A stretch of 64,000 bases of DNA from Streptomyces sp. ML-6 (GTDB lineage: Bacteria > Actinomycetota > Actinomycetes > Streptomycetales > Streptomycetaceae), in contig NZ_JAOTIK010000002.1 of the NCBI RefSeq assembly GCF_030116705.1, positions 62,001 through 126,000 on the forward strand. The letters are read 5' to 3'. The translations under genes were made by a program, and so were the position numbers. Of the stretch, positions 5,371 to 20,388 are shown piece after piece. Each line of letters starts with the position of its first letter. Within the stretch, counting starts at the first letter, position 1. The notes under the pieces are model-generated. The model ran no database searches. It saw nothing but the letters and a program-made list of their open reading frames with translations, and was not told the origin of the DNA.

Positions 5371-5595
5371 CACCGGCCACGGCCGGAGTCGAGTTGGACC
5401 CGGCTGCAGCAGTCTGTGCTGGGCGGATTCTGCGCCGGTACGCCCCGTTGCGGGATGCGCCGAACCGATGAAAAATGGGTCTTGTAGCGGCTTTTGCAGC
5501 GGCCTTCAGCCCGAAACCAAACCGTTGGACCACCCTCGAAGGGTTCTGTCCGCAACGGACGAAGCAGTGCGACGCATATCCCGTCTGGATCCACG

Positions 5596-7035
5596 ATGGC
5601 CAAAACCACCCGGCGACACGTCCTGCACATGACCAGCGCATCTGCCTTGGCCGCAGCGCTCGCGTTGCCCGCGGCTCCCGTGACCGCTCTGCCGACGCCT
5701 CAAGTCCGTAGCGAGGCCGGGGCGGACCTGCCTCTTCGGCCAACGCCTCCGTCACCCGCGCCTCCGTCACCGACGCCTCCGTCACCCGCGCCTCCGTCAC
5801 CGACGCCTCCGTCACCGACGCCTCCGTCACCGACGCCCCCTCCCCCGTCGACGCCGAGCACTCCACCCTCGACGACAGCACCTCCTCCCTCCACACCGAG
5901 CGGGACTACGAGTCCGGCCGAGACGCCGCAACCGAGCGAGACGTCGGACACCGATGAGCCGCCCAGTCCCAGGGAAGGCGATACACCGGCGTCCCACGCC
6001 GTGACGCAGCAGAAGGAGGACATCGATGAAGTGACGGGAGACCTGAACCAGAAGAAGGAGGAAGTTCCGGAGGAGCTGGTCCCGAGCGTGGGGCAACTGA
6101 CCACCATCCTAAAGGCAGTGGAGGACCCGGGGACCTCGCCGCAGGAGCGTGACGGCGTCATCAGGACCGCACAGGCTCTGAGCTCCACACTGGAAGTGAT
6201 CGGCGATCCCGAGACACCTCACGCGCTGCGGGGACAGTTGACCGGGCTCGTGAAGCAGGTGACCGCCACGCTGGACACAGCGAACCACCCAGGGATATCG
6301 CCCGAGCAGCGACGCACGGTCACCTTGGTCGCTGAGAGGTCGGCATCCGTCCTGGACATGATCGGCGACCGCGAGACGCCGCAGGGGCTGCGGGGACAGC
6401 TGATCGGGATCGTGAACGACGTGACCGCCGCCGTAACCCGTGACCGTCATGCAAGGACCTTGAAGCTCGCGAAGTCAATGACTACTTCGCTGGTCATCAT
6501 CAGCGACCCGAACACGCCTGACAAGGAACGGAAGGGCCTCGCGGAGACCACGCACGAGGCCGGTTCGTCTCTGGAAAATCAGAATGACTCGGACGAGCAG
6601 ACCGATCGAATGAAGAAGAAGCAGGAGGAAGCCGCCTCCGCTCAGGGCCTGCCGGACGTACCCCTCCCGAAGGCGGCCGAAGTCTGCACCAATGCCGTCT
6701 TCGATTCCGTCCCGGACGACACCCTGAACCGTGATCTCAAGAGCGTAGTGCCCGAGAAGTGGGAAACCGAAGGCGTCAACGATTTCTGGAAATCGGACGA
6801 GTCAGGGAACGACTACCTCGACGTACTCGTCCAGTTGCTGAACGAGGAATCCGCCGACGCTCCACTGAAAATCAAACGTCTCATCCCCAAGCTCGCCGAT
6901 TCCGTACCGGCAAGTGAACTCTTCGGGACCCTCGGCACTCCGGGGCTTCATTGCCTCCGTGCGGCCCTGCAGCTCGATCAGGATTCCGAGGTCAAATCAG
7001 GTTCCTGGGTCAAGATGGCTAAGGAGAAGGAATAG
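5596..7035 (+). CDS. Tat-secreted proline-rich repeat protein, function unknown
   Basis: 479 residues. The N-terminus MAKTTRRHVLHM followed by an alanine-rich hydrophobic stretch and PAAPVTA is a twin-arginine signal peptide, so it is predicted to be exported folded. Residues about 50-80 are six 15 bp tandem units encoding TPPSP/APPSP, a flexible wall-spanning linker, then a Ser/Thr/Pro segment. The middle (about 165-320) has repeats of roughly 36 residues built around VIGDPETPxxLRGQL, alternating with longer helical spacers; the C-terminus is a separate mixed domain with two Cys (EVCTN, LHCLR). ATG 5596 is chosen because it starts the Tat motif; upstream in-frame codons carry no signal. Its 3' end overlaps the convergent membrane-protein gene by 17 bp. 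No known enzyme domain seen. Confidence 0.75.
   Translation: MAKTTRRHVLHMTSASALAAALALPAAPVTALPTPQVRSEAGADLPLRPTPPSPAPPSPTPPSPAPPSPTPPSPTPPSPTPPPPSTPSTPPSTTAPPPSTPSGTTSPAETPQPSETSDTDEPPSPREGDTPASHAVTQQKEDIDEVTGDLNQKKEEVPEELVPSVGQLTTILKAVEDPGTSPQERDGVIRTAQALSSTLEVIGDPETPHALRGQLTGLVKQVTATLDTANHPGISPEQRRTVTLVAERSASVLDMIGDRETPQGLRGQLIGIVNDVTAAVTRDRHARTLKLAKSMTTSLVIISDPNTPDKERKGLAETTHEAGSSLENQNDSDEQTDRMKKKQEEAASAQGLPDVPLPKAAEVCTNAVFDSVPDDTLNRDLKSVVPEKWETEGVNDFWKSDESGNDYLDVLVQLLNEESADAPLKIKRLIPKLADSVPASELFGTLGTPGLHCLRAALQLDQDSEVKSGSWVKMAKEKE
5743..5832 (+). repeat. Six tandem 15 bp units in the proline-rich linker
   Basis: Units of the form (A/G)CGCCTCCGTCACC(G/C) encode alternating TPPSP and APPSP. 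Near-identical DNA units indicate recent slippage expansion. Confidence 0.9.
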
Positions 7036-8473
7036 ACCTCAGCAACTCCGCCACGGACACCTCCGAAGAAGCGTAAACCGTGGAAGTGCCGAATCTGTCA
7101 ACTTCTCTTGTTTCTTCGGCAGGATCACCCGCAGCCCCTCCACCTTTGAAATCGTAAGAGGAAGAAATAGAGTATTTAGGACTTCTTGTCGGCGACCACT
7201 CCGCTGTCACATAGCGTGGTTTGCGCGTCACGTTGACCAGGTTGTTGTTGTGACGCACCCTGCCGTGATACCTGAGCGTTTCCCTGCACAACGACGGATG
7301 GCAGTAGTACGGGCTCCTCTTGATCCACGACGCGTGCGGTTTACTGAAATTCTCCACGTCGATCCGCCCTCGATCCTTCCTCATGTATGTGATCTGCAGG
7401 TCGACGCGCAGAAGGTCGTACTGGACGTTCTTGGGAATCTCAAATACATGCACCCTAGCGTCTTCCTGCCCAGTGCCGAGGACTTCACCAGCCCTATAGA
7501 ACCGCCCACTGCTTATTGACGTATATTCGAGTTGATCGACATGACTTTCCGCCTCCTCTTTCGTCTCACCCTTCTCGAAGCTCTCCTTCCATCGTTCCTT
7601 TACCAAGTTACCCTGCTCGGAATACTTGGCAGTTCTGCCGTAGACCGTGAAGTCATTGATGATTATGTATACCGAGACCTCTCCAGTATTCTTGACGGAG
7701 AGTTTCAGCGGGACCTGAATGAAGGGGCGTCCGCGGTCTGCCCGCGCCTTTCCGAATTCCGCCTTCAGCGCGAAACGCATAGGGGCAACTGCCGGTTGGT
7801 ACATGGTTGAGTACGTCAGACTGAGAGCAGTCAGGAGGGCCGATACGAACACGCCGGCCGCGAATCTCTTGGGTTGCGGAACTCCCTTCCATGATTTCTC
7901 CCGGACCAGCAGGAGGAGGGCCCACAGTGACCAGCACCAGAGAGGCATGAACGCCAGCATGTAGGGCGTGTATTCCCGCTCTTCGAGCCACATCAGAAGG
8001 AGAAGGCTGTCGGTGCCGAGTGATATGAGTACACCAATCAGGACGATCGCACCGGAGATTTTGGACTGTCGTCTTCCCCAGTAGTCGAGTACCGAGATCG
8101 CTGCCGCAACCTGTGTCAGACCGGACAGGACGAACAGGGCCCCGGTTATTCGTTGCGCAAAAGTCAGGGCGCCGGAGGCGTCCGGCCATCCGATCATTCC
8201 GTTGAGGACCGCGGATGCGACCAGTCCCAGCATCATGAGGACGCTGGTCACGCGTCTTCTCCAGGTCCGGGCGGGCCAGGCGCTGCTGTCCCCGCCGCGC
8301 CAGCACACAGATGCCGGGTCCTCCACATCCACGTCCGGGTAACCGAGGCGGTCCAGCATCTTTCGCAGCTCACGCAGCGACCAGGTACTGCCTACGGTCT
8401 CCCCGCCGATGGTGACCCGGCGAAGACCACGACTGTCCGGTGCCTCGACGACGACCCATGGACGGATGCTCAT
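7019..8473 (-). CDS. Multi-pass membrane protein with large C-terminal domain, unknown function
   Basis: 484 residues from ATG 8473. Residues 1-75 are soluble and mention no known fold; then about five hydrophobic segments follow (SVLMMLGLVASAVLNG, ALFVLSGLTQVAAAIS, GAIVLIGVLISLGTD, LAFMPLWCWSLWALLLL, and FAAGVFVSALLTALSLTYS). The C-terminal 230 residues form a beta-rich, presumably external domain with YIIINDFTVYG and FEIPKNVQYDLLRVD. Lower GC than its neighbours, suggesting recent acquisition. It converges on the Tat-secreted protein with overlapping 3' ends. I do not recognise the family. ATG 8473 is preferred over upstream starts because the sequence before it is low-complexity. Confidence 0.7.
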   Translation of the reverse strand: MSIRPWVVVEAPDSRGLRRVTIGGETVGSTWSLRELRKMLDRLGYPDVDVEDPASVCWRGGDSSAWPARTWRRRVTSVLMMLGLVASAVLNGMIGWPDASGALTFAQRITGALFVLSGLTQVAAAISVLDYWGRRQSKISGAIVLIGVLISLGTDSLLLLMWLEEREYTPYMLAFMPLWCWSLWALLLLVREKSWKGVPQPKRFAAGVFVSALLTALSLTYSTMYQPAVAPMRFALKAEFGKARADRGRPFIQVPLKLSVKNTGEVSVYIIINDFTVYGRTAKYSEQGNLVKERWKESFEKGETKEEAESHVDQLEYTSISSGRFYRAGEVLGTGQEDARVHVFEIPKNVQYDLLRVDLQITYMRKDRGRIDVENFSKPHASWIKRSPYYCHPSLCRETLRYHGRVRHNNNLVNVTRKPRYVTAEWSPTRSPKYSISSSYDFKGGGAAGDPAEETREVDRFGTSTVYASSEVSVAELLRSIPSP

Positions 8474-8576
8474 GAAGCCAGCCTCGAACCGGAGCCGGAA
8501 CCGCGCATGCGGGTTTGCTCCGGTTGGCCCCATGCGGACGGCCCTGTTCTCCAGATGCAGGTGATTAGTTGGTCTC

Positions 8577-8674: not shown

Positions 8675-9088
8675 ATGGCCACGGTTCCACCTGTCACCCG
8701 CCCTGGCTCGGTCTACCTGCTTGCCGGAATCAGGCTCTTCAACGGAGCCGCCGGTCTGCTGGCACCGGAGCTGCTCATCCGCCGGTTCGACCCCGGCCGT
8801 GAGCCGCCCAGTCCGGCGGCCGTCTACGCCTTCCGGCTCTTCGGTATCCGTACGGTCCTGCTCGGCCTCGATCTGCTGAGCCACAGCGGCGATCGGCTCC
8901 GAGCGGACCTGTGCGAGGGAATCCTGATCCACGGCAGTGACACCGCGACGGCGGCCACGCTCGGCATCCACGGGCACGTCCCGCCGCGCACCGCGGTACT
9001 GACCACGCTCATCTCGGCCGTCAACACCGCCTTGGCCATCAGTGCCAGTGCCTCGCTCGCCAACTCCTCGAAGAAAGAGCAGACATGA
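8675..9088 (+). CDS. Small four-helix membrane protein, first gene of the peroxidase operon
   Basis: 137 residues with four hydrophobic stretches (VYLLAGIRLFNGAAGLL, YAFRLFGIRTVLLGLDLL, GSDTATAATLGIHG, TLISAVNTALAISASAS). The layout resembles small DUF4267-like integral membrane proteins; assignment to that family is not certain. Start ATG 8675 has a good ribosome site (TAGGAGA, 8664-8670). Its stop overlaps the start of the GMC oxidoreductase by 4 bp (ATGA), so the two are translationally coupled. It may anchor or supply quinone or lipid substrate to the enzymes that follow. Confidence 0.75.
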   Translation: MATVPPVTRPGSVYLLAGIRLFNGAAGLLAPELLIRRFDPGREPPSPAAVYAFRLFGIRTVLLGLDLLSHSGDRLRADLCEGILIHGSDTATAATLGIHGHVPPRTAVLTTLISAVNTALAISASASLANSSKKEQT

Positions 9089-10989
9089 ACGCGCAGTCGG
9101 CTCCCCCGGCCGAGACGGGCTTCGACTACATCGTGGTCGGCGCCGGCGCGGGTGGCGGACCGCTGGCCGCCAACCTCGCCAGTTCGGGCATGCGCACCCT
9201 GCTCCTCGACGCCGGCGGCACCGACCAGAACGACAACTACCTGGTGCCCGCGTTCCACGCCGACGCCTCCGAGGATCCCGTCCAGTGCTGGAACTACTTC
9301 GTACGGCACTACGCCGACGAGCAGCAGCACCGGCGCGACAGTAAACTCGTACCGGACAAGGGCATCCTCTACCCGCGGGCCGGGACGGTCGGCGGATGCA
9401 CGGCGCACCATGCGCTGATCACCGTCTACCCGTACAACCACGACTGGGACGCCATCGCCGAGGAGACCGACGACGCGACATGGCACAGCACAGCCATGCG
9501 CCGGTACTTCGAGCGGCTGGAGCGTTGTACCTACCGGCCGAGACCCAAGGAGCCACCCGGCAACCCGCTGCTGGCCGCGCTGCTCCGGGTTCTGCCCGTC
9601 GTGGCGGCCCGGTACCGCAACGACGCCCGGCACGGGTTCGAGGGCTGGCTGCCCACCGCCCTTGCCGATCACGAACTTGCCGTGCAGGACAAACAGTTGC
9701 TGAAGGTCCTCCTCTCCGCCGCGCAGGACACACTCGCTGGCTTCCTCGGCCGGCCGCTGTCCCCCCTCGAGGGGTTCGGCTCTTTCGTCGACCCCAACGA
9801 CTGGCAGGTGCAGACGCACGGGCTGCAAGGGCTGTGGCAGATCCCCATCTCCACGGCGGACGGCCGCCGCAGCGCCGTACGGGAACGCGTCCAGGCGGTG
9901 CAGCGCGCTCATCCGGATCACCTGGTGGTCCGTACCCACGCGCTGGCCGCCCGGGTCGTGCTGGACGAGAGCAATGCGGCGAAAGGCGTCGACTACCTGG
10001 ACGAGGCGCACGCCTACGGGGCCGATCCCTTCAGTCACCCCGGCTCCGGGCCACCTGAGCTGCACCGGGTCCTCGCCTCCCGCGAGGTGATCCTGGCTGC
10101 CGGTGCCTTCAACACGCCCCAGCTGCTGATGCTTTCCGGCATTGGACCACCTGAGGAACTGCGGCTGCACGGCATCCCCGTGCGGGTCGCCCTGCAGGGA
10201 GTGGGCGCGCATCTCCAGGACCGGTACGAAGTCGGCGTGGTCAGCCGGATGACCCGCGAGTTCCCGGTCATCAAGGACTGCGACTTCCACGCTCCGAAGC
10301 CCGGAACCGAACCGGACCGCTGCTACCAGGCCTGGCAGCAGGGCGAGGGCCTCTACACCACCAACGGCGCCGTCCTCGGCATCACTCGCAAGTCGCACCC
10401 GGACTTGGATGCCCCCGACCTGTTCATCTTCGGCGGCCCCTTCGACTTCCGAGGATACCGTCCCGGCTACTCGCTCGATCTGACACACCACAAGGACCGC
10501 TTCACCTGGGCCATCCTCAAGAGCCGTACCCACAACGCGGGAGGCCGCGTCCGGTTGCGCTCGGCCGACCCACGCGACACCCCACTGGTCAACTTCCACT
10601 ACTTCACCGAGGGAACGGACAAGGACGGCCTGGATCTCGAGGCGATGGCCGATGCCGTGGAGTTCGTGCGAACGATGAACCGCAGGGCCGGCTCTGTCGT
10701 TCTCGAGGAGTTGTGGCCCGGCAAGGACATCGACGACCGCGACGGCGTCCGCCGTTTCGTCCAGGACGAGGCCTGGGGCCACCATGCCTCCTGCACCTGC
10801 CGGATTGGACGCCCCGACGATCCTTCGGCGGTGGTCGACAGCGCGTTCCGGGTGTGCGGGGTGGACCGTCTGCGGATCGTCGACGCCTCGGTCTTCCCCC
10901 GCATTCCTGGCTTCTTCGTCGCCGCCCCCATCTATATGATCAGCGAGAAGGCGAGCGATGTAATCCTCTCCGACGCGGCCCGCACCTGA
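9085..10989 (+). CDS. GMC-family FAD-dependent oxidoreductase
   Basis: 634 residues of the glucose-methanol-choline family, which oxidise alcohol groups with FAD. The Rossmann motif is VVGAGAGGGPLAANLA (residues 17-32) with an acidic LLLDAGG at the ribose-binding end; the second FAD block is GTVGGCTAHH, the GMC signature 2 is GAFNTPQLLMLSGIG, and the C-terminal catalytic region is WGHHASC plus the closing FFVAAPIYMISEKAS. Full length for the family. No signal peptide. Coupled to the membrane-protein gene upstream and 51 bp ahead of the peroxidase. In this context a long-chain alcohol or hydroxy-lipid is a plausible substrate, but that is inference. Confidence 0.88.
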   Translation: MNAQSAPPAETGFDYIVVGAGAGGGPLAANLASSGMRTLLLDAGGTDQNDNYLVPAFHADASEDPVQCWNYFVRHYADEQQHRRDSKLVPDKGILYPRAGTVGGCTAHHALITVYPYNHDWDAIAEETDDATWHSTAMRRYFERLERCTYRPRPKEPPGNPLLAALLRVLPVVAARYRNDARHGFEGWLPTALADHELAVQDKQLLKVLLSAAQDTLAGFLGRPLSPLEGFGSFVDPNDWQVQTHGLQGLWQIPISTADGRRSAVRERVQAVQRAHPDHLVVRTHALAARVVLDESNAAKGVDYLDEAHAYGADPFSHPGSGPPELHRVLASREVILAAGAFNTPQLLMLSGIGPPEELRLHGIPVRVALQGVGAHLQDRYEVGVVSRMTREFPVIKDCDFHAPKPGTEPDRCYQAWQQGEGLYTTNGAVLGITRKSHPDLDAPDLFIFGGPFDFRGYRPGYSLDLTHHKDRFTWAILKSRTHNAGGRVRLRSADPRDTPLVNFHYFTEGTDKDGLDLEAMADAVEFVRTMNRRAGSVVLEELWPGKDIDDRDGVRRFVQDEAWGHHASCTCRIGRPDDPSAVVDSAFRVCGVDRLRIVDASVFPRIPGFFVAAPIYMISEKASDVILSDAART

Positions 10990-11040
10990 CCGCACCGTCC
11001 GCTACGCGATACGACCAGGAGCCAATCAAGGAGCATCCCT

Positions 11041-12894
11041 ATGAGCACGCACCGAAGCGCCGCACGGCGCTCCCCGGCCGGATACCGGACGTCACTCCCC
11101 TGGCGGATCATCACCGGTGCCGCCGCATACATCGACCGTCGCTTCGGCTGGGACAGACTGCCCGTCGTCGCGGGCCTGCTGACGCTCCTCGGGCTGCGCG
11201 TCAGACTCCGGCAGAAGAACTTGTACGACACCGGCCGTCTGCCCGCGATCAATCAGCCCGAGCCCGCGCCCCCGTCCGCGAGCCACCAGGTCAACCGGAC
11301 CGCCGACGGCAGCCACAACGATCTCGGCGAGCCGCGCATGGGCATGGCGGGCACCCGCTTCGGCCGGAACATCCCGCTGGAGGCCATCGTCCCCGCCTCG
11401 CCCGAGGATGTACTGGCACGGCCCAATCCGCGCGAGGTCAGCCGCGCGCTGCTCACCCGCGACCAGCTGGTCCCCGCCGAGTCCGTCAACTCCCTGGTCG
11501 CCGCCTGGCTCCAGTTCATGGTCCGGGACTGGTTCAGCCACGGTACGAGCCCCCCGGACCGGCCCTGGGAAGTTCCCCTGATGGACGATGACGCGTGGCC
11601 GGAAGAGTCCATGCAGATCATGCGGACTCCGGACGACCCGACACGTGACCCGCAGGCGCCCGCCGGCACGCCGGATACCCGCGTCAACGTGTCCTCCCAC
11701 TGGTGGGACGCGTCCCAGATCTACGGCAAGAACGAGGCCGAGCAGCACCAGTTGCGTACCGGCGAATGGGGCAAACTGCACCTGTGGGACGACGAGCAGC
11801 CGCCCGTCCCCGCCGACCCCTCCCAGGACCCCACGCGTGTTCCCGGCTTCTGGCTGGGCCTCGCCATGATGCAGGACCTGTTCACCCGGGAGCACAACGC
11901 GGTCTGCGACCACCTGCACGCCGCCTACCCGTCCTGGGGCGACGAGGAGCTGTTCCAGCGTGCCCGGCTCGTCATCGCTGCGCTCCTCGCGAAGATCCAC
12001 ACCGTGGAGTGGACACCGGCCGTGATCAGCCATCCCACCACCGTCAAGGCGCTGCGCGCCAACTGGTGGGGTATCGCGGGCGAACGCGTCCACAACCTCT
12101 TCGGCCGCGTCAGCGACAGCGAGGTCATCAGTGGGATCCCCGGCGGTGAGACGGACCACTACGGCGTCCCCTACGCGCTCACCGAGGAGTTCGTGGCGGT
12201 CTACCGCATGCACCCGCTCGTCCGTGACAACTGGCACCTGCGCTCCGTCACCGACGACATGACGCTGCGTCACTGCACTCTGCGTGACATCGCGGGCCCG
12301 GGAGCACTGAAGTTCCTGGAGACCACCAAGATGGCCGACCTGCTCTACAGCTTCGGCACGCTGCACCCCGGACTGGTCACCCTGCACAACTTCCCCAGGT
12401 TTCTGCAGGAGTTCGAACGCCCTGACGGGCATCTGCAGGACCTCGCCGCCACCGACATCCTGCGCTCCCGGGAGCTGGGGGTGCCACGCTACAACGAGTT
12501 CCGGCGACTGCTGCGGCTCAAGCCCGCGGAGAGCTTCACGGAGCTGGCGCACGATCCTGCGTGGGCCGAGCAAATCGAGCGGCTCTACGACGGCGACATC
12601 GAGAGGGTCGACCTGACGGTCGGGCTGTACGCGGAGAAACTGCCGGCCGGATTCGCCTTCAGCGACACGGCGTTCCGGATCTTCATCCTGATGGCCTCGC
12701 GCCGGCTGAACAGTGACCGCTTCTTCACCGCCTACTACATCCCCGAGGTCTACTCCAAGCCCGGTATGGCCTGGATCGACGACAACAGCATGGTCACCGT
12801 CCTGCTGCGCCACTACCCCGAGCTGCGTACGTCCCTGTCCGGGCTGACCAACGCCTTCGTGCCGTGGCACCGCGCCGCACAGAAAGAGACCTGA
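11041..12894 (+). CDS. Alpha-dioxygenase-like haem peroxidase (animal peroxidase superfamily)
   Basis: 617 residues. The N-terminus (AYIDRRFGWDRLPVVAGL, then RFGRNIP) and overall length match fatty-acid alpha-dioxygenases rather than myeloperoxidases. Diagnostic blocks are SHWWDASQIYG, FTREHNAVCDHL, and VYRMHPLVRDNW, where Tyr is the catalytic tyrosyl residue and His the proximal haem ligand. Alpha-dioxygenases insert O2 at C2 of fatty acids, giving 2-hydroperoxides that decay to the one-carbon-shorter aldehyde. Oddity: the distal block reads WLQFMVRDWFSH; the superfamily's QxxxH distal histidine position is Arg here. That may mean altered or lost peroxidase chemistry, or use of the His five residues later. 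Strong ribosome site (AAGGAG). Ends one base before the next start. Confidence 0.82.
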   Translation: MSTHRSAARRSPAGYRTSLPWRIITGAAAYIDRRFGWDRLPVVAGLLTLLGLRVRLRQKNLYDTGRLPAINQPEPAPPSASHQVNRTADGSHNDLGEPRMGMAGTRFGRNIPLEAIVPASPEDVLARPNPREVSRALLTRDQLVPAESVNSLVAAWLQFMVRDWFSHGTSPPDRPWEVPLMDDDAWPEESMQIMRTPDDPTRDPQAPAGTPDTRVNVSSHWWDASQIYGKNEAEQHQLRTGEWGKLHLWDDEQPPVPADPSQDPTRVPGFWLGLAMMQDLFTREHNAVCDHLHAAYPSWGDEELFQRARLVIAALLAKIHTVEWTPAVISHPTTVKALRANWWGIAGERVHNLFGRVSDSEVISGIPGGETDHYGVPYALTEEFVAVYRMHPLVRDNWHLRSVTDDMTLRHCTLRDIAGPGALKFLETTKMADLLYSFGTLHPGLVTLHNFPRFLQEFERPDGHLQDLAATDILRSRELGVPRYNEFRRLLRLKPAESFTELAHDPAWAEQIERLYDGDIERVDLTVGLYAEKLPAGFAFSDTAFRIFILMASRRLNSDRFFTAYYIPEVYSKPGMAWIDDNSMVTVLLRHYPELRTSLSGLTNAFVPWHRAAQKET

Positions 12895-12895
12895 G

Positions 12896-14917
12896 ATGGG
12901 AGCGACGCAGAGGACGGGTCAGGAGCACGTACGCCAGGTCGCCGCGGCCGCCGAGCGGTACCGGGCAACGAGCGACGCGCGCCGGGCCATGGAGCGGCAG
13001 CAGGATGCCGGCGTCTCCTTCCCGGACTCGCGGCAGGCGCTCGCCGCGCGGGCCGCGCGCCTGCTGGACCGGCACGCGGTGCCCGCCGCCATGGCCGTGG
13101 AGGCCGTACGCGCGGAACCGCTGGCCGCACCCGAGGCCTATGAGCGCATCCTTGGGGTGTCCAAGGAACTGCAGGCGTGGAGCTTCCTGCCGCGGGGTGC
13201 CCGGGCGGCGCGCACCGTCGCACGGATATCGGTGCGGGAGAACGGCCGCGAACTGCCGCTCGGCACCGGCTTCCTGGTTTCGCCGCACCTGCTGATGACC
13301 AACCATCATGTGCTCGCCGACGCCGAGGCGGCCCGGGACTGCTTCGTCGAGTTCGACGCCCAGGTCACCATCGACAACACGCCGCAGCCGCCAACGCGGC
13401 TGGGGCTGGATCCGGACGCGTTCTTCGTGGCCGACGAACGCCTGGACTTCACCCTGGTACTGGTCGCACCCGGCCCGGACGCGCTGCCACCTGGGGAAAC
13501 CTTCGGCTGGAACCGTCTCAGCGCCCAACCGGGCAAGTTGGTCATCGGGGAGCCGGTCAACGTGATCGGCCACCCGATGGGCCGCCTGAAGGAGATCGCC
13601 GTCCGCGACAACATGCTCCAGGTGCGGCTCGACGACTTCCTCCACTACCAGACGGACACCGAACCCGGCAATTCGGGCTCCCCCGTCTTCAACGATCAGT
13701 GGGAGGTCGTCGCGCTCCACCACAGCGGGGTACCGAAGACCGACGACCAAGGGCGTCTGCTGCGCAAGGACGGGCAGGTGTGGCAGCCCGGTGACGGCGA
13801 CGACGCGGTCGAATGGGTGTCCAACGAGGGCGTACGCATCAGCTCCATCCTGCGCCACCTCGCTCAACTGCCGCCCGGCACCCGGTCGGGCCCGCTGTCC
13901 GAAATGGGCGCCGAGTCGGGTCTTAGCCTGACAGAGTCCGCGGTTCCCGCCCCGGCGCCCGCGGCCGCCGTGCCCGGACCGGCCACGACGGCAGTCGCCC
14001 ACACGGGCCTGCGCGCCCGGGACGGCGCGTTCGGCGGCCGGCGCCATCTCGTCTTCCTGCACGGGCGCTCCCAGGAGCACAAGCATCCGGACATGCTGCG
14101 TGGCGAATGGACGGCCGGTCTCAACCAGGGACTCGTCCGCGCCGGGCTCCCACCGGTCGACCCGGCCGATGCCTGGTTCCCCTACTACGGTGATCGGCTG
14201 GTGCAAGCGGTCTCCGCGCACGAGGCTGTTCCCCATGTCACCGAGGCCACGAGTCTCTCTCCGGCCGAGGCACTTGCTCCCGCCTCACCCACGGCCCGTG
14301 CGGTGTACGAGGAGATGATCAGCGAGGCCGCTGTCAGATGGAACATCCCACAGGAGAGGCAGCCGGAGGTCGAACGGATCGCCAGGGGCGACATCGTCAA
14401 AGGGCTTCGTCGGCAGCTGAGCTGGCTGGCCGCGAGGAGCGACCTCGACGCGTGGGCCATCGCACTGACCCTCCACGATGTGGCCGCGTATCTCGACGAC
14501 CGGCGCGTCCGGGACGCGGTCCTGGACTGTGTGCTGGAGACCCTACCGGAGGAAGGTGAGGTGATACTCGTCAGCCACAGCCTCGGCACAGTGGTCGGCA
14601 TGGACCTCACCACCCGGCTGTCTCCCGCGCTGCGTACGATCCACCTCACCACGGTGGGCAGCCCACTCGGACTGGACAGCGTGTTCAAGAGGCTGCTCAT
14701 CGGTGGGCCGAAGCGGCCCGAGGCGGTGGTGGACTGGCTCAACGCGTGGTCCCCCTCCGACGCGGTGGCCATCGGATGCCCGCTGGCCGACGACTGGTCG
14801 GGGGCGCTGTCCGACGTCGCCGTCATCAACGCCCGCGACCGGGCCCACAACATCGTGGAGTACCTCTCCCACCCGGAGGTCGCCGGGGAGATCGGCCACC
14901 ACCTCGAGCTCAGGTGA
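12896..14917 (+). CDS. Trypsin-like serine peptidase fused to an alpha/beta-hydrolase
   Basis: 673 residues, two catalytic modules. Residues about 1-95 are helical. About 100-320 is a trypsin-like domain: His in LLMTNHHVLAD, Asp in ERLDFTLVLV, Ser in TEPGNSGSPVF; no signal peptide, so it is of the intracellular trypsin_2 type. A Pro/Ala linker follows (about 345-375). About 380-673 is a hydrolase: HLVFLHGRS as oxyanion strand, nucleophile in VSHSLGTVVG, and a late HPEV histidine. Starts one base after the peroxidase stop, so it belongs to the same transcript. Known actinobacterial conflict systems use trypsin-like domains to activate attached effectors; here the attached module is lipase-like, fitting a lipid pathway. 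Substrates unknown. Confidence 0.82.
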   Translation: MGATQRTGQEHVRQVAAAAERYRATSDARRAMERQQDAGVSFPDSRQALAARAARLLDRHAVPAAMAVEAVRAEPLAAPEAYERILGVSKELQAWSFLPRGARAARTVARISVRENGRELPLGTGFLVSPHLLMTNHHVLADAEAARDCFVEFDAQVTIDNTPQPPTRLGLDPDAFFVADERLDFTLVLVAPGPDALPPGETFGWNRLSAQPGKLVIGEPVNVIGHPMGRLKEIAVRDNMLQVRLDDFLHYQTDTEPGNSGSPVFNDQWEVVALHHSGVPKTDDQGRLLRKDGQVWQPGDGDDAVEWVSNEGVRISSILRHLAQLPPGTRSGPLSEMGAESGLSLTESAVPAPAPAAAVPGPATTAVAHTGLRARDGAFGGRRHLVFLHGRSQEHKHPDMLRGEWTAGLNQGLVRAGLPPVDPADAWFPYYGDRLVQAVSAHEAVPHVTEATSLSPAEALAPASPTARAVYEEMISEAAVRWNIPQERQPEVERIARGDIVKGLRRQLSWLAARSDLDAWAIALTLHDVAAYLDDRRVRDAVLDCVLETLPEEGEVILVSHSLGTVVGMDLTTRLSPALRTIHLTTVGSPLGLDSVFKRLLIGGPKRPEAVVDWLNAWSPSDAVAIGCPLADDWSGALSDVAVINARDRAHNIVEYLSHPEVAGEIGHHLELR

Positions 14918-16304: not shown

Positions 16305-17186
16305 CTACGGACGGAGCCATAGGCGGATCGCGGCCACGGTGACCGTCCCGTGGAAGACGTACGCCCGTTTGTCGAAACGCGTGGCGACGGCGCGGAAGTT
16401 CTTGAGCCGGTTGATGGTCCGCTCGACCTCGTTGCGTCGGCGGTAGATCGTCTTGTCGAAGCCCGTGGGCCGGCCTCCTTGGCTGCCGCGGCGCCGGCGG
16501 TTAGCCCGCTGGTCTCTCGGCTCGGGGATCGTGTGCTTGATCTGGCGTCTGCGCAGGTGACGCCGATTACGGCGTGATGAGTACGCCTTGTCTCCCCCGA
16601 CATGGTCGGGCCGAGTGCGCGGTCGTCCACCAGCCTGCCGGGGCACACGGATCTCTTCCAGGACGGGAATCATCTGCGGTGCGTCCCCCCACTGACCGGG
16701 CGTGATGACAAACCCGAGCGGGCGACACCCACCTTCCCCAGCAAGGTGGATCTTGCTCGTGAGCCCGCCTCGCGAGCGTCCCAGGGCCTCATCGGGACGG
16801 TGACGCGCCGGGTTTCTGCGCCGACCCGGAATCTTCGGGGCACGAGTGGAGGCGCCGGCCGCGTGCTGATGAGCGCGGCAGGTCGTGGAATCGACGCTGA
16901 CCATGCTCCAATCGATCCGGCCCTCGGCATCGGCGTCGGCCTGGACGGCCCGCAGGATCCTCTCCCACGTGCCGTCCGCCGACCACCTGCGATGACGATC
17001 GTGGACCGTCCTCCAGCTACCGAAGCAGGGAGGAAGGTCCCGCCAGGAGAGGCCGGTCCGCTGCCGGAACAGAATCCCGTTGATCACACGGCGGTGGGAT
17101 TGCCAGCGTCCACCCCGCCCGCGATTCACCGGCAAGTGCGGCTCCAGTCGAGCCCACTCTTCATCCGAAAGATCTCCCCGCCCCAT
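16305..17186 (-). CDS. IS5-family transposase, apparently intact
   Basis: 293 residues. N-terminal LSDEEWARLEPHLP and GILFRQRTGLSWRDLP are the DUF4096-type DNA-binding region; catalytic Asp in VSVDSTTCRAHQHA, second Asp in VGGDKAYSSRRNRR, and the DDE Glu in YRRRNEVERTINRLKNFRAVATR. All three catalytic residues and the usual C-terminus are present, with no internal stop, so it could be active. ATG 17186 starts 53 bp inside the right terminal repeat. It has no ribosome site of note. Confidence 0.9.
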   Translation of the reverse strand: MGRGDLSDEEWARLEPHLPVNRGRGGRWQSHRRVINGILFRQRTGLSWRDLPPCFGSWRTVHDRHRRWSADGTWERILRAVQADADAEGRIDWSMVSVDSTTCRAHQHAAGASTRAPKIPGRRRNPARHRPDEALGRSRGGLTSKIHLAGEGGCRPLGFVITPGQWGDAPQMIPVLEEIRVPRQAGGRPRTRPDHVGGDKAYSSRRNRRHLRRRQIKHTIPEPRDQRANRRRRGSQGGRPTGFDKTIYRRRNEVERTINRLKNFRAVATRFDKRAYVFHGTVTVAAIRLWLRP

Positions 17187-17236
17187 GTCCCACGGAACGA
17201 GTGCCCAGCGGGAGCGTCACGCGACCCATCGGACAC

Positions 17237-17246
17237 GACCTAGCCG
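17237..17246 (+). repeat. IS4-family target duplication GACCTAGCCG, left copy
   Basis: The 10 bp sequence recurs at 18721-18730. It contains the last three bases of the IS5-type element, its CTAG duplication, and three bases of ISAzo13 transposase. Confidence 0.92.
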
Positions 17247-18720
17247 CAATACCGGTGCTTTAGGGCTTAATTCGTGGGGTTGGGGATGTTTTGGTGGGTT
17301 CGACGAGGGTGACGGCGGGGGTGGCCGGGCGAGGTGGGTTGTTGTGTTCGGTGCGTTTGAGTGCCCAGTTGGACATTTTGCGTTTGATCACTCGCGGGTT
17401 GGACCGTAACCGCCGTGGTTCCAGGAGGCGTTCGGTGATTTCACGCAGGGTCTGCTTCAGTGCCCGGGTGAGCCGGGAGGGGGGAAAATCCCGCCTGGCT
17501 GGTGGTCTGCCGGCGGACGACGCGCAAGGTGCGGGTGAAGGACATCCGGTCCGGATCCTCCCTCTCCTGCCGGGCGGCCTGGTGCATGAGGTCGCGCAAC
17601 GCGTGGTGCACGAGGAGGAACGCGAAGATCTCCTGCTCGGCCCCGACCGGATACTGGGAGCGCAGGACGAATCCGGGTCCGCCCAGGTGGATCTTGATCT
17701 CGTCGAAGGTCGTCTCGATCTCCCAGCGTTCGGCGTAGAGTGCAGCGAGCTCCACGGCCGGTGCGGTGGCCGGGTCCAGGAGTGTGGTGACCAGCCGGTA
17801 AACGGCGCCCTCCCCACCTGGGTCCAAGGCGTATTCGATGACGCGAACCTGTGCCGGGTCGGCCCGCCGGTTCTTGTCCCGGGCGGCAACGATCTCCGAC
17901 AGATACGAGCCATCGGGCAGCGCGGCCACCACGGGCAGGACCGCGTTGCTCCGGACCCGCCACAACAGGTCCGCGCCGGTCGACGCGGCGGCCCGCCACA
18001 GATCGAAGCCGAGGAAGCCCCGATCCGCCAGGAGCAGCATTCCTCTGGTCAGCGAGGGGAACAGGCGGCGGGCCAGGGCCGTCTCATGCACCGCCAGTGG
18101 CGCGACGTCGGCGGCGAACACGGCGTGGGTGCCGCACTCGACCAGGGCCACGGCCCTGGCCTGCGGATACGCGCTCCTGCCCTGGCCACGCCCCGTTCCC
18201 GGCCGTCCGAAGAAGGCGGCGTTGGCCTGCGTATCGGGAAGGTCGAAGGTCGTCCCGTCCACCGACACCAACCGCAGACCCCGAAACCACGCTCCCGTCG
18301 TCGCCGGGAGCGCCACGGGTCGGCAGACCCTGGCGAACAACGCCTTCATCGGTTCCGCCCCCAGCCGCAACCGGGCCCGTCCGATCGCCCCGCTGGTGGG
18401 CACCCGCCACGTCTTCGACCAGCGGCGTTCCCGTTCCAGGCCCTGAGTGAGGAGCCGCCCGACCTCCTCATACCCCTGCCCCGAGAACAGGCACATCGCC
18501 AGCACGAAATACATCACCACCCGAGCGGGAAGCAGACGCTGACGTTCCTCGGTGCGTCCGCACTCCGCCACCACCTCATCCACCAGCTCCGGCGGAAACG
18601 CACGCGTGAGCACTCCCAGGGCGATGCGATCCGAAAACCGATCGCCCTCAACTACCTTCAACTGTCCTGGCCTTGGCATACCAACTCAACGAGCCAGCGT
18701 CGGCAAAGTCACCGGTATTG
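17247..18720 (-). mobile_element. IS4-family element, 1474 bp
   Basis: Ends share the 11 bp inverted repeat CAATACCGGTG (17247-17257) and CACCGGTATTG (18710-18720), flanked by a perfect 10 bp direct repeat, the duplication size usual for this family. Carries one transposase gene on the minus strand. Confidence 0.92.
17260..18679 (-). pseudogene. IS4-family transposase with a late frameshift
   Basis: From ATG 18679: MPRPGQLKVVEGDRFSDR, LVSVDGTTFDLPDT (first catalytic Asp), MLLLADRGFLGFD (second), and YAERWEIETTFDEIK (YREK-type block with the Glu). At about 17485 an extra base in a TTTT run (minus strand) diverts the frame; the conserved end FPPSRLTRALKQTL to NPRVIKRKMSNW continues in the other frame to 17260. 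All catalytic residues precede the break, so the longer-framed product (stop at 17441) may retain some activity. A homopolymer error in sequencing is a possible cause. Confidence 0.88.
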
Positions 18721-20388
18721 GACCTAGCCGCGAAGTTCCAGGCGTTGTTCCCGCACTTGGACGAGCGTCAACGCCGGTTGGCCATGGGGGCTGAGGCCCG
18801 GTCACTGGGGCACGGCGGGATTCGGAAGGTGGCCCGCGCCGCTGGCGTGCGTGAGGGCCCCGTGTCCCGCGGAGTGGCAGAACTGGAGGCCGGGACAGCG
18901 CCGTTGGGTCGGGTCCGCCGGGAAGGCGGAGGCCGCAAGCGCGCGGTAGACCTCGACCCGGGACTGCGGCCCGCCCTGCTGGCCCTCGTCGAGCCGGACA
19001 TGCGGGGCGATCCGATGTCGCCCCTGCGCTGGACGACGAAGTCAACTCGTCACCTGGCCGGCGAGCTGACCAGGCAGGGACACCACATCTCGGCGGAGAC
19101 CGTGGCCGACCTGCTGCGCGAGGAGGGCTTCAGTCTCCAGGGCAACGCCAAGACCATCGAAGGCAAGCAGCACCCGGACCGCGACGGCCAGTTCCGATAC
19201 ATCAACGAGCGGGCCAAGGAGCACCAGGCCGCCGGAGACCCGGTGGTCAGTGTCGACACCAAGAAGAAGGAGGTGGTCGGCAACTACAAGAACGCCGGCG
19301 GCGAATGGCACCGCGAGGGCGAGCCGGTCCAGGTACGGACTCACGACTTCCCGGACCCGGAGCTGGGCAAGGCCATCCCGTACGGGATCTACGATCTGGC
19401 CGCGGACACCGGCTGGGTCAGCGTGGGGACCGACCACGACACCGCAGCGTTCGCCGTGGAATCCGTCCGTCGCTGGTGGAACAGCCAGGGCCGCGGCGTC
19501 TATCCGCACGCACGGCGACTGCTGATCACCGCGGACGCGGGCGGCTCGAACGGCTACCGCACCCGCGCCTGGAAAGCCGAACTCGCCGCTCTGGCCCTGG
19601 AGGCCGGCCTGGAGATCACCGTCTGTCACTTTCCTCCAGGTACTTCAAAGTGGAACAAAGTGGAACATCGGCTGTTCTCCCACATCACCATGAACTGGCG
19701 CGGCAGGCCCCTCACCAGTCACGAAGTCATCGTGAACAGCATCGCCGCGACGCCCACCCGCACCGGGCTGACGGTGCACGCCGAACTCGACACCACCCCC
19801 TACGAGACCGGAGTCCGGATCGGCGACCGGCAGATGAACGCCCTGCCCCTGCACCGCCACGAGTGGCACGGCGACTGGAACCACACGCTGCGACCCGAGG
19901 CATACGCCCAGGTCAGTGACGCACCGGACCCCTTCGACCAGCCCAGCCCCGACCTTGCGTGGCTGTGTCACCCGGCCCTGACCGGAATGCCGGCCGAGGA
20001 GTGGGACACGCTGATCACCACGCTCACCGCCCTCCACGAGGACCAGCGGGAAGCACACCTGGACAAGCGGCGAGGCCACCGGCCCCGCCCGGCGGCCCCG
20101 GGCACCGGCCGGCGCCCCGTCCTCACCCTCGCCGACCGGCTCCTGGCCACCCTCCTCCATTACCGGCTCGGGCTCCCGCAGGTCGCCGTCGCCCGCCTCT
20201 TCACCGTCACGCCCTTCACCATCAACCGGCGCATCCGCGACATCCGCCAACTCCTCGGCACGGCCGGATACGTCATCCATCCCGCTGACCAGCAACTCAC
20301 CACCCTGGAGCACCTTTACGACCACGCGAGCGCGGTAGGCATCACCCCGCTCAAGATCAAGACGGCGAGTTAATGATCCGCAGGCCCT

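Follow-up and report, generated by a model that had tools for sequence, protein, structure and literature searches.

The question raised by this locus is whether four tightly packed genes of Streptomyces sp. ML-6 make up a pathway for lipid oxidation and, if they do, whether the set is fixed or one variant of a looser theme. The genes, here called A to D, lie on the forward strand at positions 8675 to 14917 of the window, i.e. the whole stretch of 64,000 nucleotides that was analysed (contig NZ_JAOTIK010000002.1, positions 62,001 to 126,000), which is part of a 9.1-Mb genome in five contigs. They encode a small hydrophobic protein (A), an FAD-dependent GMC oxidoreductase (B), an alpha-dioxygenase (alpha-DOX)-type heme protein (C) and a trypsin-like protease joined to an alpha/beta-hydrolase-like domain (D), and the original prediction had proposed that they form an undescribed lipid-oxidation operon. 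The best reading of our comparison is that lipase, alpha-DOX and GMC genes constitute a modular alpha-oxidation cassette and not a set of four fixed genes. An alpha-DOX is accompanied here by a flavin enzyme and a protease-hydrolase fusion, and near a related cyanobacterial DOX, apparently one with activity already demonstrated in vitro, lie a similar flavin enzyme and a lipase. Together, these findings point to a bacterial pathway of fatty-acid oxidation that has attracted little notice.

Gene C encodes an alpha-dioxygenase homologue with a distal arginine

Gene C (11041..12894, + strand, 617 aa) matches PF03098 at 4.4e-102, and its alignment with plant alpha-DOX covers 580 residues (353 bits, 2e-104). 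C could be aligned over its full length with both plant and cyanobacterial alpha-DOXs, which places it in this family by homology; the NCBIfam search gave no name for it. Among 8000 candidates scored in a large protein set, 7810 were relatives. C was present in 56 of 394 genomes of the family at E ≤ 1e-100 (63 at 1e-3); for the class, with E set to 1e-50, the figure was 19 of 296. The window's own genome is included in each count, and C is thus an accessory gene. The best named matches, among those listed (the best 80 of at least 577 relatives), come from Streptomyces. The window and these 80 named loci formed our comparison set, in which close Streptomyces dominate because the best 80 were taken.

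The active-site residues were placed on C by means of the rice DOX numbering (PMC8720084). Accordingly, the radical Tyr corresponds to Y388, the proximal His to H391 and the carboxylate triad to H320, T325 and R555. These five residues, as well as F384 and F548, are invariant in all 81 copies from the 80 named loci. The distal heme position is occupied by Arg162 in C and by Arg in 54, His in 25, Lys in one and Asn in one of the 81 copies, and on a tree of 86 rows four changes between His and non-His suffice to explain this pattern. The plant enzymes with solved chains 4kvj and 4hhr share with C the full-length homology and the substrate-site residues but have a distal His where C has Arg162; we assigned these chains to rice and Arabidopsis, respectively, by residue numbering, whereas in PMC8720084 related codes appear with the two species exchanged. 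No study or assay of the distal-Arg form was found in the literature search. According to the text of Kim et al. (2021, PMC8720084), the distal His is merely partially conserved across proteins still named alpha-DOXs. Since C lacks this residue, which is nevertheless only partly conserved in the family, we place C in a distal-Arg clade of homologues of the alpha-DOXs and do not treat it as a proven alpha-DOX. The earlier description of C as alpha-dioxygenase-like therefore holds for the full-length homology and for the retained Tyr, His and triad, and has to be amended at the distal position. Judging from its sequence, C probably oxygenates fatty acids at C2.

A related gene set on a Calothrix plasmid

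The DOX encoded on a plasmid of Calothrix sp. PCC 6303 is 49.2% identical to C over 583 aa. In a scripted comparison it agreed with the printed residues of CalDOX at 13 of 13 positions (131, 290, 294, 295, 304, 310, 354, 361, 519, 522, 523, 526 and 529), and V18 and R22 are also readable in the printed N-terminus. Because these positions fit, the plasmid DOX appears to be CalDOX, the two having been compared via the printed numbering and not as full sequences. Recombinant CalDOX is described as active on C10-C14 acids (Kim et al. 2021, PMC8720084). The cyanobacterial alpha-dioxygenases CalDOX and LepDOX share with C the Tyr, the proximal His and the His/Thr/Arg carboxylate site, whereas CalDOX has the distal His131 in place of Arg162.

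A GMC gene whose product is 49.7% identical to B lies 2.5 kb from the Calothrix DOX on the same strand, past a transposase gene and a gene of no assigned family, and behind it on this strand comes a patatin gene that overlaps it by 4 bp. Thus, a GMC enzyme like B is also present at the Calothrix locus, a patatin stands in place of the protease-hydrolase fusion of the window, and no A-type gene was found in the stretch compared. When a plasmid collection was searched with B, the best match was this same plasmid record. In the main text of the CalDOX paper (PMC8720084) the terms GMC, operon, gene cluster, patatin, phospholipase and neighbor do not appear, and our literature search, outside whose reach subscription papers mostly lay, revealed no paper joining an alpha-dioxygenase, a GMC oxidoreductase and a patatin.

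Genes A and B recur beside alpha-dioxygenase genes

Gene B (9085..10989, + strand, 634 aa) contains the domains PF05199 and PF00732, and its catalytic His pair H566/H567 is invariant in 11 aligned rows, which bears out its assignment to the GMC oxidoreductases. It overlaps gene A by 4 bp (ATGA) and is followed by a 51-bp spacer (10990..11040, + strand) with an AAGGAG motif ahead of the start of C; C and D are separated by 1 bp (TGAgATG). The coordinates and junctions given in the original prediction were thereby confirmed from the open reading frames. The best solved-structure profile match of B was fatty acid photodecarboxylase (FAP, 201.7 bits), a member of the same family with Ser/Asn at the positions of B's His pair. 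We rejected B as a FAP: in the structure alignment the Cys/Ser-variable position of FAP is Ala in B, and the Arg/Ala-variable position sits in an insertion that B lacks. These two positions are presumably the essential FAP residues C432 and R451.

Gene A (8675..9088, + strand, 137 aa), whose ATG start is preceded by AGGAG, probably encodes a small hydrophobic membrane protein, as two of its regions exceed the hydropathy cut-off used. This agrees with the membrane protein proposed earlier, to which the Pfam search added a sub-threshold match to DUF4267 (E 0.013) and nothing above threshold. Residues G24, H86, D89, S114 and N117 are invariant in an alignment of 20 rows.

In the comparison set, A was found near C and on its strand in 36 of 81 loci (A-type genes on the opposite strand, as in L063 and L084, are excluded), B near C on the same strand in 18 (including two remnants, L033 and L036, and omitting one, L047) and D near C in 12 (including the partial L036, L038 with broken frames, L067 with D split in two genes and L107 where D is not the next gene). 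All four genes occurred together in only six loci, namely the window, L035, L037, L038 (broken frames), L044 and L079. The co-occurrence search thus did not sustain the fixed four-gene set that had been proposed, and D is facultative. The order A-B-C is seen in Streptomyces and Blastococcus (L074, L080) and the order C-A-B in two Actinobacteria/Thermoleophilia bins, one of them Thermoleophilia (L090, L095), and the B proteins of the Blastococcus and Actinobacteria/Thermoleophilia units show 52-58% identity. Across 101 loci, profile matches on the DOX strand included 18 GMC genes at position -1, 32 A genes at -1 or -2 and nine D genes at +1, and because of this the gene arrangement exceeds chance. 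Among 25 DOX-positive genomes of the family (chosen by a DOX identity of ≥61%, the window's own genome omitted), B was present in six and lay directly upstream of DOX in all six. At 1e-120, B was found among 121 evenly drawn family genomes in the window's own genome alone.

In Mycolicibacterium/Mycobacterium a gene of the F420H2-dependent quinone reductase type lies directly 3' of an A-C pair (L108:10781-11317, by Pfam; L111:10786-11328, by clustering). On plasmid pRL11 of Rhizobium johnstonii (L182:1696-10676) a GMC 43% identical to B is followed by a patatin, and the DOX place upstream is taken by two proteins, one a RoxA-like cytochrome-c protein and the other matching cytochrome c below the threshold.

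Lipase-type and catalase-related partners of alpha-dioxygenases

Lipase-type genes were found near DOX in 30 of 81 loci (D-type 12, patatin eight, subtilase/hydrolase nine, Abhydrolase_10 one; locus sets listed by hand), with 18 changes on the tree of C. The patatins are those of L059, L069, L090, L095 and L099, identified by Pfam, and of L051, L053 and L055, identified by clustering; that of L095 is set off by a gap of 542 bp. A subtilase with an alpha/beta hydrolase behind it occurs in L093 (Pfam) and in L102, L104, L105 and L106 (clustering), a hydrolase alone in L103, Abhydrolase_10 in L078 and a divergent subtilase/hydrolase pair in L087, L097 and L110. Patatins are scarce in the family: 61 genomes gave 100 matches, some being fragments of a single gene, a count independent of the DOX-seeded profile. 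The co-travelling of B and C, the several unrelated esterase/phospholipase-type families beside C homologues and the DOX-GMC-patatin set of Calothrix give the proposed lipid-oxidation pathway more support than a chance neighbourhood would, as a modular theme and not as a fixed set.

A second recurrent partner is a family of about 390 aa, whose profile gave its best matches to 3e4w (2.5e-6), which we take to be MAP-2744c, and to catalases, with coral allene oxide synthase at 0.0096; a single sequence of the family gave no match in the PDB, though the profile gave some. This catalase-related partner is a separate gene in 28 of the examined loci and is fused to DOX in nine called genes. The fusion is N-terminal in S. 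ochraceiscleroticus (L051:2424-5288) and twice in the window's genus (L176:6305-9163, L177:7035-9914), and C-terminal in five mycobacteria (L087, L091, L097, L103, L110) and L167. Two alphaproteobacterial plasmid DOX genes (L179:4762-7611, L180:4771-7599) are fusions too, so that both domain orders and two phyla are represented. A comparable pairing is that of the Nostoc 10S-DOX, a fatty-acid dioxygenase related to COX, with a catalase-related lyase as its own partner for handling the hydroperoxide (2014, cited in PMC13049297); C homologues likewise adjoin or are fused to a catalase-related domain. However, the Nostoc enzyme is a different dioxygenase, and in the window a GMC gene but no catalase-related gene stands beside C.

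In L060:4051-8443, L070:4051-8383 and L160:2336-6807, recurrent families of about 150 and 430 aa as well as DyP-like and catalase-related proteins are encoded beside DOX genes. The two families are joined in some genomes; neither has a Pfam or NCBIfam name, and no PDB match was obtained for the one of about 430 aa.

Gene D encodes a protease and a hydrolase-like domain

Gene D (12896..14917, + strand, 673 aa) encodes a trypsin-like (V8-like) domain at about residues 101-330 (13196..13885, + strand), which matches PF13365 (Trypsin_2), and a C-terminal hydrolase-like domain at about residues 366-673 (13991..14914, + strand), with HGR at 389-391, an elbow H-S562-L-G and the candidate residues D622 and H651. 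The triad H138/D184/S260 is invariant in 34 aligned rows, as expected of a trypsin-like peptidase, and the hydrolase signatures are conserved in the same 34 sequences; the linker is variable and rich in Ala and Pro. The trypsin-hydrolase fusion described originally thus stands in its two catalytic signatures, while its second half remains below the Pfam cut-off: the best Pfam match was Abhydrolase_6 at 1.4e-4, seen in three of 11 rows, the window's row not among them. A separate hydrolase gene of Geodermatophilus (L067) aligns with the C-terminal domain along its entire length (43% identity, probability 100), so the two domains of D also occur as adjacent genes.

We rejected D as a trypsin-endonuclease: the submitter name "endonuclease G" is borne by proteins that align with 96-100% of D. 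In PADLOC, D gave a match to RT-Protease_XI (28 bits, over residues 113-283) and two others of lower score, which were dismissed as defence evidence because the trypsin part alone matches. In L159 (10811-12769, - strand) an Endonuclease_NS domain is fused to a trypsin-like domain 43% identical to that of D over 305 aa, with two genes between the fusion and DOX; the D homologue of L134:7649-11741, which has no DOX nearby, lies 10 bp ahead of a gene for an Endonuclease_NS protein.

Proposed mechanism and the evidence against it

From the gene order, the family and site residues of C, the two catalytic signatures of D and the recurring DOX-GMC-lipase sets, all of which are read from the sequences, we infer substrates, products and an order of steps, together with roles for D and A and a site at the membrane. 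The hydrolase domain of D would free a carboxylic acid from an ester lipid, and patatins would do likewise elsewhere. C would hold the carboxylate by His320, Thr325 and Arg555, the Tyr388 radical would abstract the alpha hydrogen, and O2 would be added to give a 2-hydroperoxy acid, which could decay to the Cn-1 aldehyde or be reduced to the 2-hydroxy acid. B, with its FAD, might oxidise one of the products (an aldehyde hydrate, an alcohol or a hydroxy acid); should B be an oxidase, it could also supply the peroxide that keeps the heme/Tyr site of C activated. The role of A may be to anchor the complex in the membrane or to couple it there, and the protease of D may release hydrolase activity, either its own or that of a partner. 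Overall, we lean slightly towards A-B-C being a membrane-associated fatty-acid alpha-oxidation module to which D has been added as an acyl-releasing enzyme.

Several observations speak against this proposal. In C, Arg162 takes the place of the distal His, which is described as one of the two heme ligands used in making the Tyr radical (PMC8720084). The hydropathy scan of C gave no peak above the cut-off, so that its membrane site would rest on likeness to the plant enzymes. Several close copies of C, for example those in L041, L042, L050 and L052, have no A, B or D in the flanks examined. The partners were also fewer in an evenly drawn sample of the class, which comprised 20 of the 22 sites where DOX was found in genomes other than the window's own (two second copies omitted, three short contigs included) and may repeat named loci: an A-type gene lay by DOX in four regions (one divergent), a catalase-related neighbour or fusion occurred in six (one divergent) and a patatin in two, B was directly upstream of DOX in none (one GMC-like piece lies five genes away in L171), D was absent among the genes listed, and many DOX copies had no common neighbour whatever. 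This indicates that the full arrangement is confined to part of the family. Genes near DOX gave more profile matches than far genes (258 and 819 genes, respectively: A 34 vs 0, GMC 21 vs 4, catalase-related 19 vs 2, D 10 vs 0, patatin 7 vs 3, hydrolase 6 vs 2), but these counts are partly circular and the ratios inflated, as the profiles were seeded with DOX neighbours.

The same holds for D. Its hydrolase domain had no Pfam match above the cut-off and no significant solved-structure match, and neither search gave a family assignment naming a lipid substrate; hence, the earlier claim that this domain frees a fatty acyl chain lacks such an assignment, and the claim that the protease gates the hydrolase rests on analogy. 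D was found in seven of the 25 DOX-positive genomes (one match, G265, spans the protease part only) and adjoined C in one of the seven, and it was found in 10 of 149 other genomes of the family, none of which were among the strong DOX matches. Seven of these 10 regions, from two other genera of the family, share one site between aro-like and efp/nusB-like genes (names by eye). D as a dedicated partner of C was therefore rejected as mostly unlinked. Given also the shared site in other genera and the joining of the trypsin domain to Endonuclease_NS, D is a protease-effector module that also exists in its own right, carried 1 bp 3' of C by one Streptomyces clade.

Alternative explanations

D could be a wholly independent module, acting in stress, cell death or defence, and merely a neighbour of A-B-C. 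The stand-alone D homologues with their shared site, the 43% identity of the trypsin domain to the Endonuclease_NS-fused one in L159 and the described activation of pro-nucleases by trypsin-like proteases in the Hachiman and Avs systems (PMC12799240) are in line with this. The 1-bp spacing to C in the Streptomyces clade, the trypsin and hydrolase gene pair behind DOX in Geodermatophilus (L067), the linked copy in Nocardia (L107) and the patatins that take the +1 place in other lineages argue otherwise, and we consider such independence possible but tend to doubt it. What D has in common with the Hachiman and Avs nuclease-protease pairs, as they are described in PMC12799240, is a trypsin-like protease that is either fused to an effector or forms a pair with one; unlike them, the window has no MBL nuclease and no sensor, the protease shares one chain with its putative effector, a hydrolase, and the gene upstream of the protease encodes not an MBL-type pro-nuclease but the heme protein C. 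For A, B and C nothing was found that points to phage defence (PADLOC gave no match for any of them), and the defence role suggested earlier has thus gained no ground.

The chemistry itself could also differ. C might be a distal-Arg, peroxide-using fatty-acid peroxygenase or decarboxylase, or another heme oxidase, with B as the oxidase that provides peroxide; the non-His distal residue in 56 of 81 copies that retain the other site residues, the four His/non-His changes on the tree and the position of B directly upstream of C in six of six B-bearing genomes would fit such an enzyme. However, the residues on which tyrosyl-radical alpha-oxygenation depends, Tyr388 and the carboxylate triad, are invariant in all 81 copies, and proteins without the distal His are still named alpha-DOXs in the text of Kim et al. 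(PMC8720084). Moreover, as far as described in PMC6153280, in B-class DyPs the distal Asp deprotonates the peroxide and the Arg keeps the cavity open, so that a lone Arg is not an obvious stand-in for the distal His. We regard this alternative as unlikely. A catabolic cassette, in which alpha-oxidation removes one carbon from branched or odd lipids, in preparation for beta-oxidation or in lipid remodelling, and serves neither signalling nor defence, seems a little less so, though still rather improbable. Every activity is compatible with chain shortening and C is accessory (56 of 394 family and 19 of 296 class genomes), but no beta-oxidation or aldehyde dehydrogenase gene was seen among the Pfam-named neighbours, which are a minority of the neighbours; one gene in L103, four places from DOX, looks aldehyde dehydrogenase-like by eye. 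Least probable of all, in our estimate, is an oxylipin burst, in which a protease-controlled lipase would strip acyl chains from the cell's own lipids, the distal-Arg alpha-DOX would convert them to reactive 2-hydroperoxides or aldehydes, and the GMC oxidase would amplify the burst with peroxide, the lipase slot being filled by unrelated enzymes from lineage to lineage (patatin, subtilase plus hydrolase, trypsin-hydrolase), as in modular immune systems.

Surroundings of the locus

The G+C content of genes A-D is 0.69, identical to that of the window. A promoter and terminator scan of the locus gave no promoter-like site (0.4 expected) and one terminator-like site (2.1 expected). Transposase-like genes, judged by eye from their translations, lie 3' of D at 16305-20373. 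Upstream, a gene at 5494-7035 encodes a protein with a long Pro/Ser/Thr repeat, and among the named loci compared only S. viridiviolaceus L079 has both this gene and the minus-strand gene at 7019-8533.

Significance

To our knowledge, bacterial alpha-dioxygenases are known as isolated biocatalysts. If they recur in one genomic unit with lipase-type and GMC genes and often with a catalase-related enzyme, they would gain a pathway and a role open to experiment. In a large clade the distal His is changed to Arg or Lys while the other site residues are kept, which raises the question of how such a heme is activated. In eukaryotes, oxylipin pathways follow a lipase-to-oxygenase logic, and if it is true that a lipase feeds the dioxygenase, the cassette would be a bacterial parallel to it.

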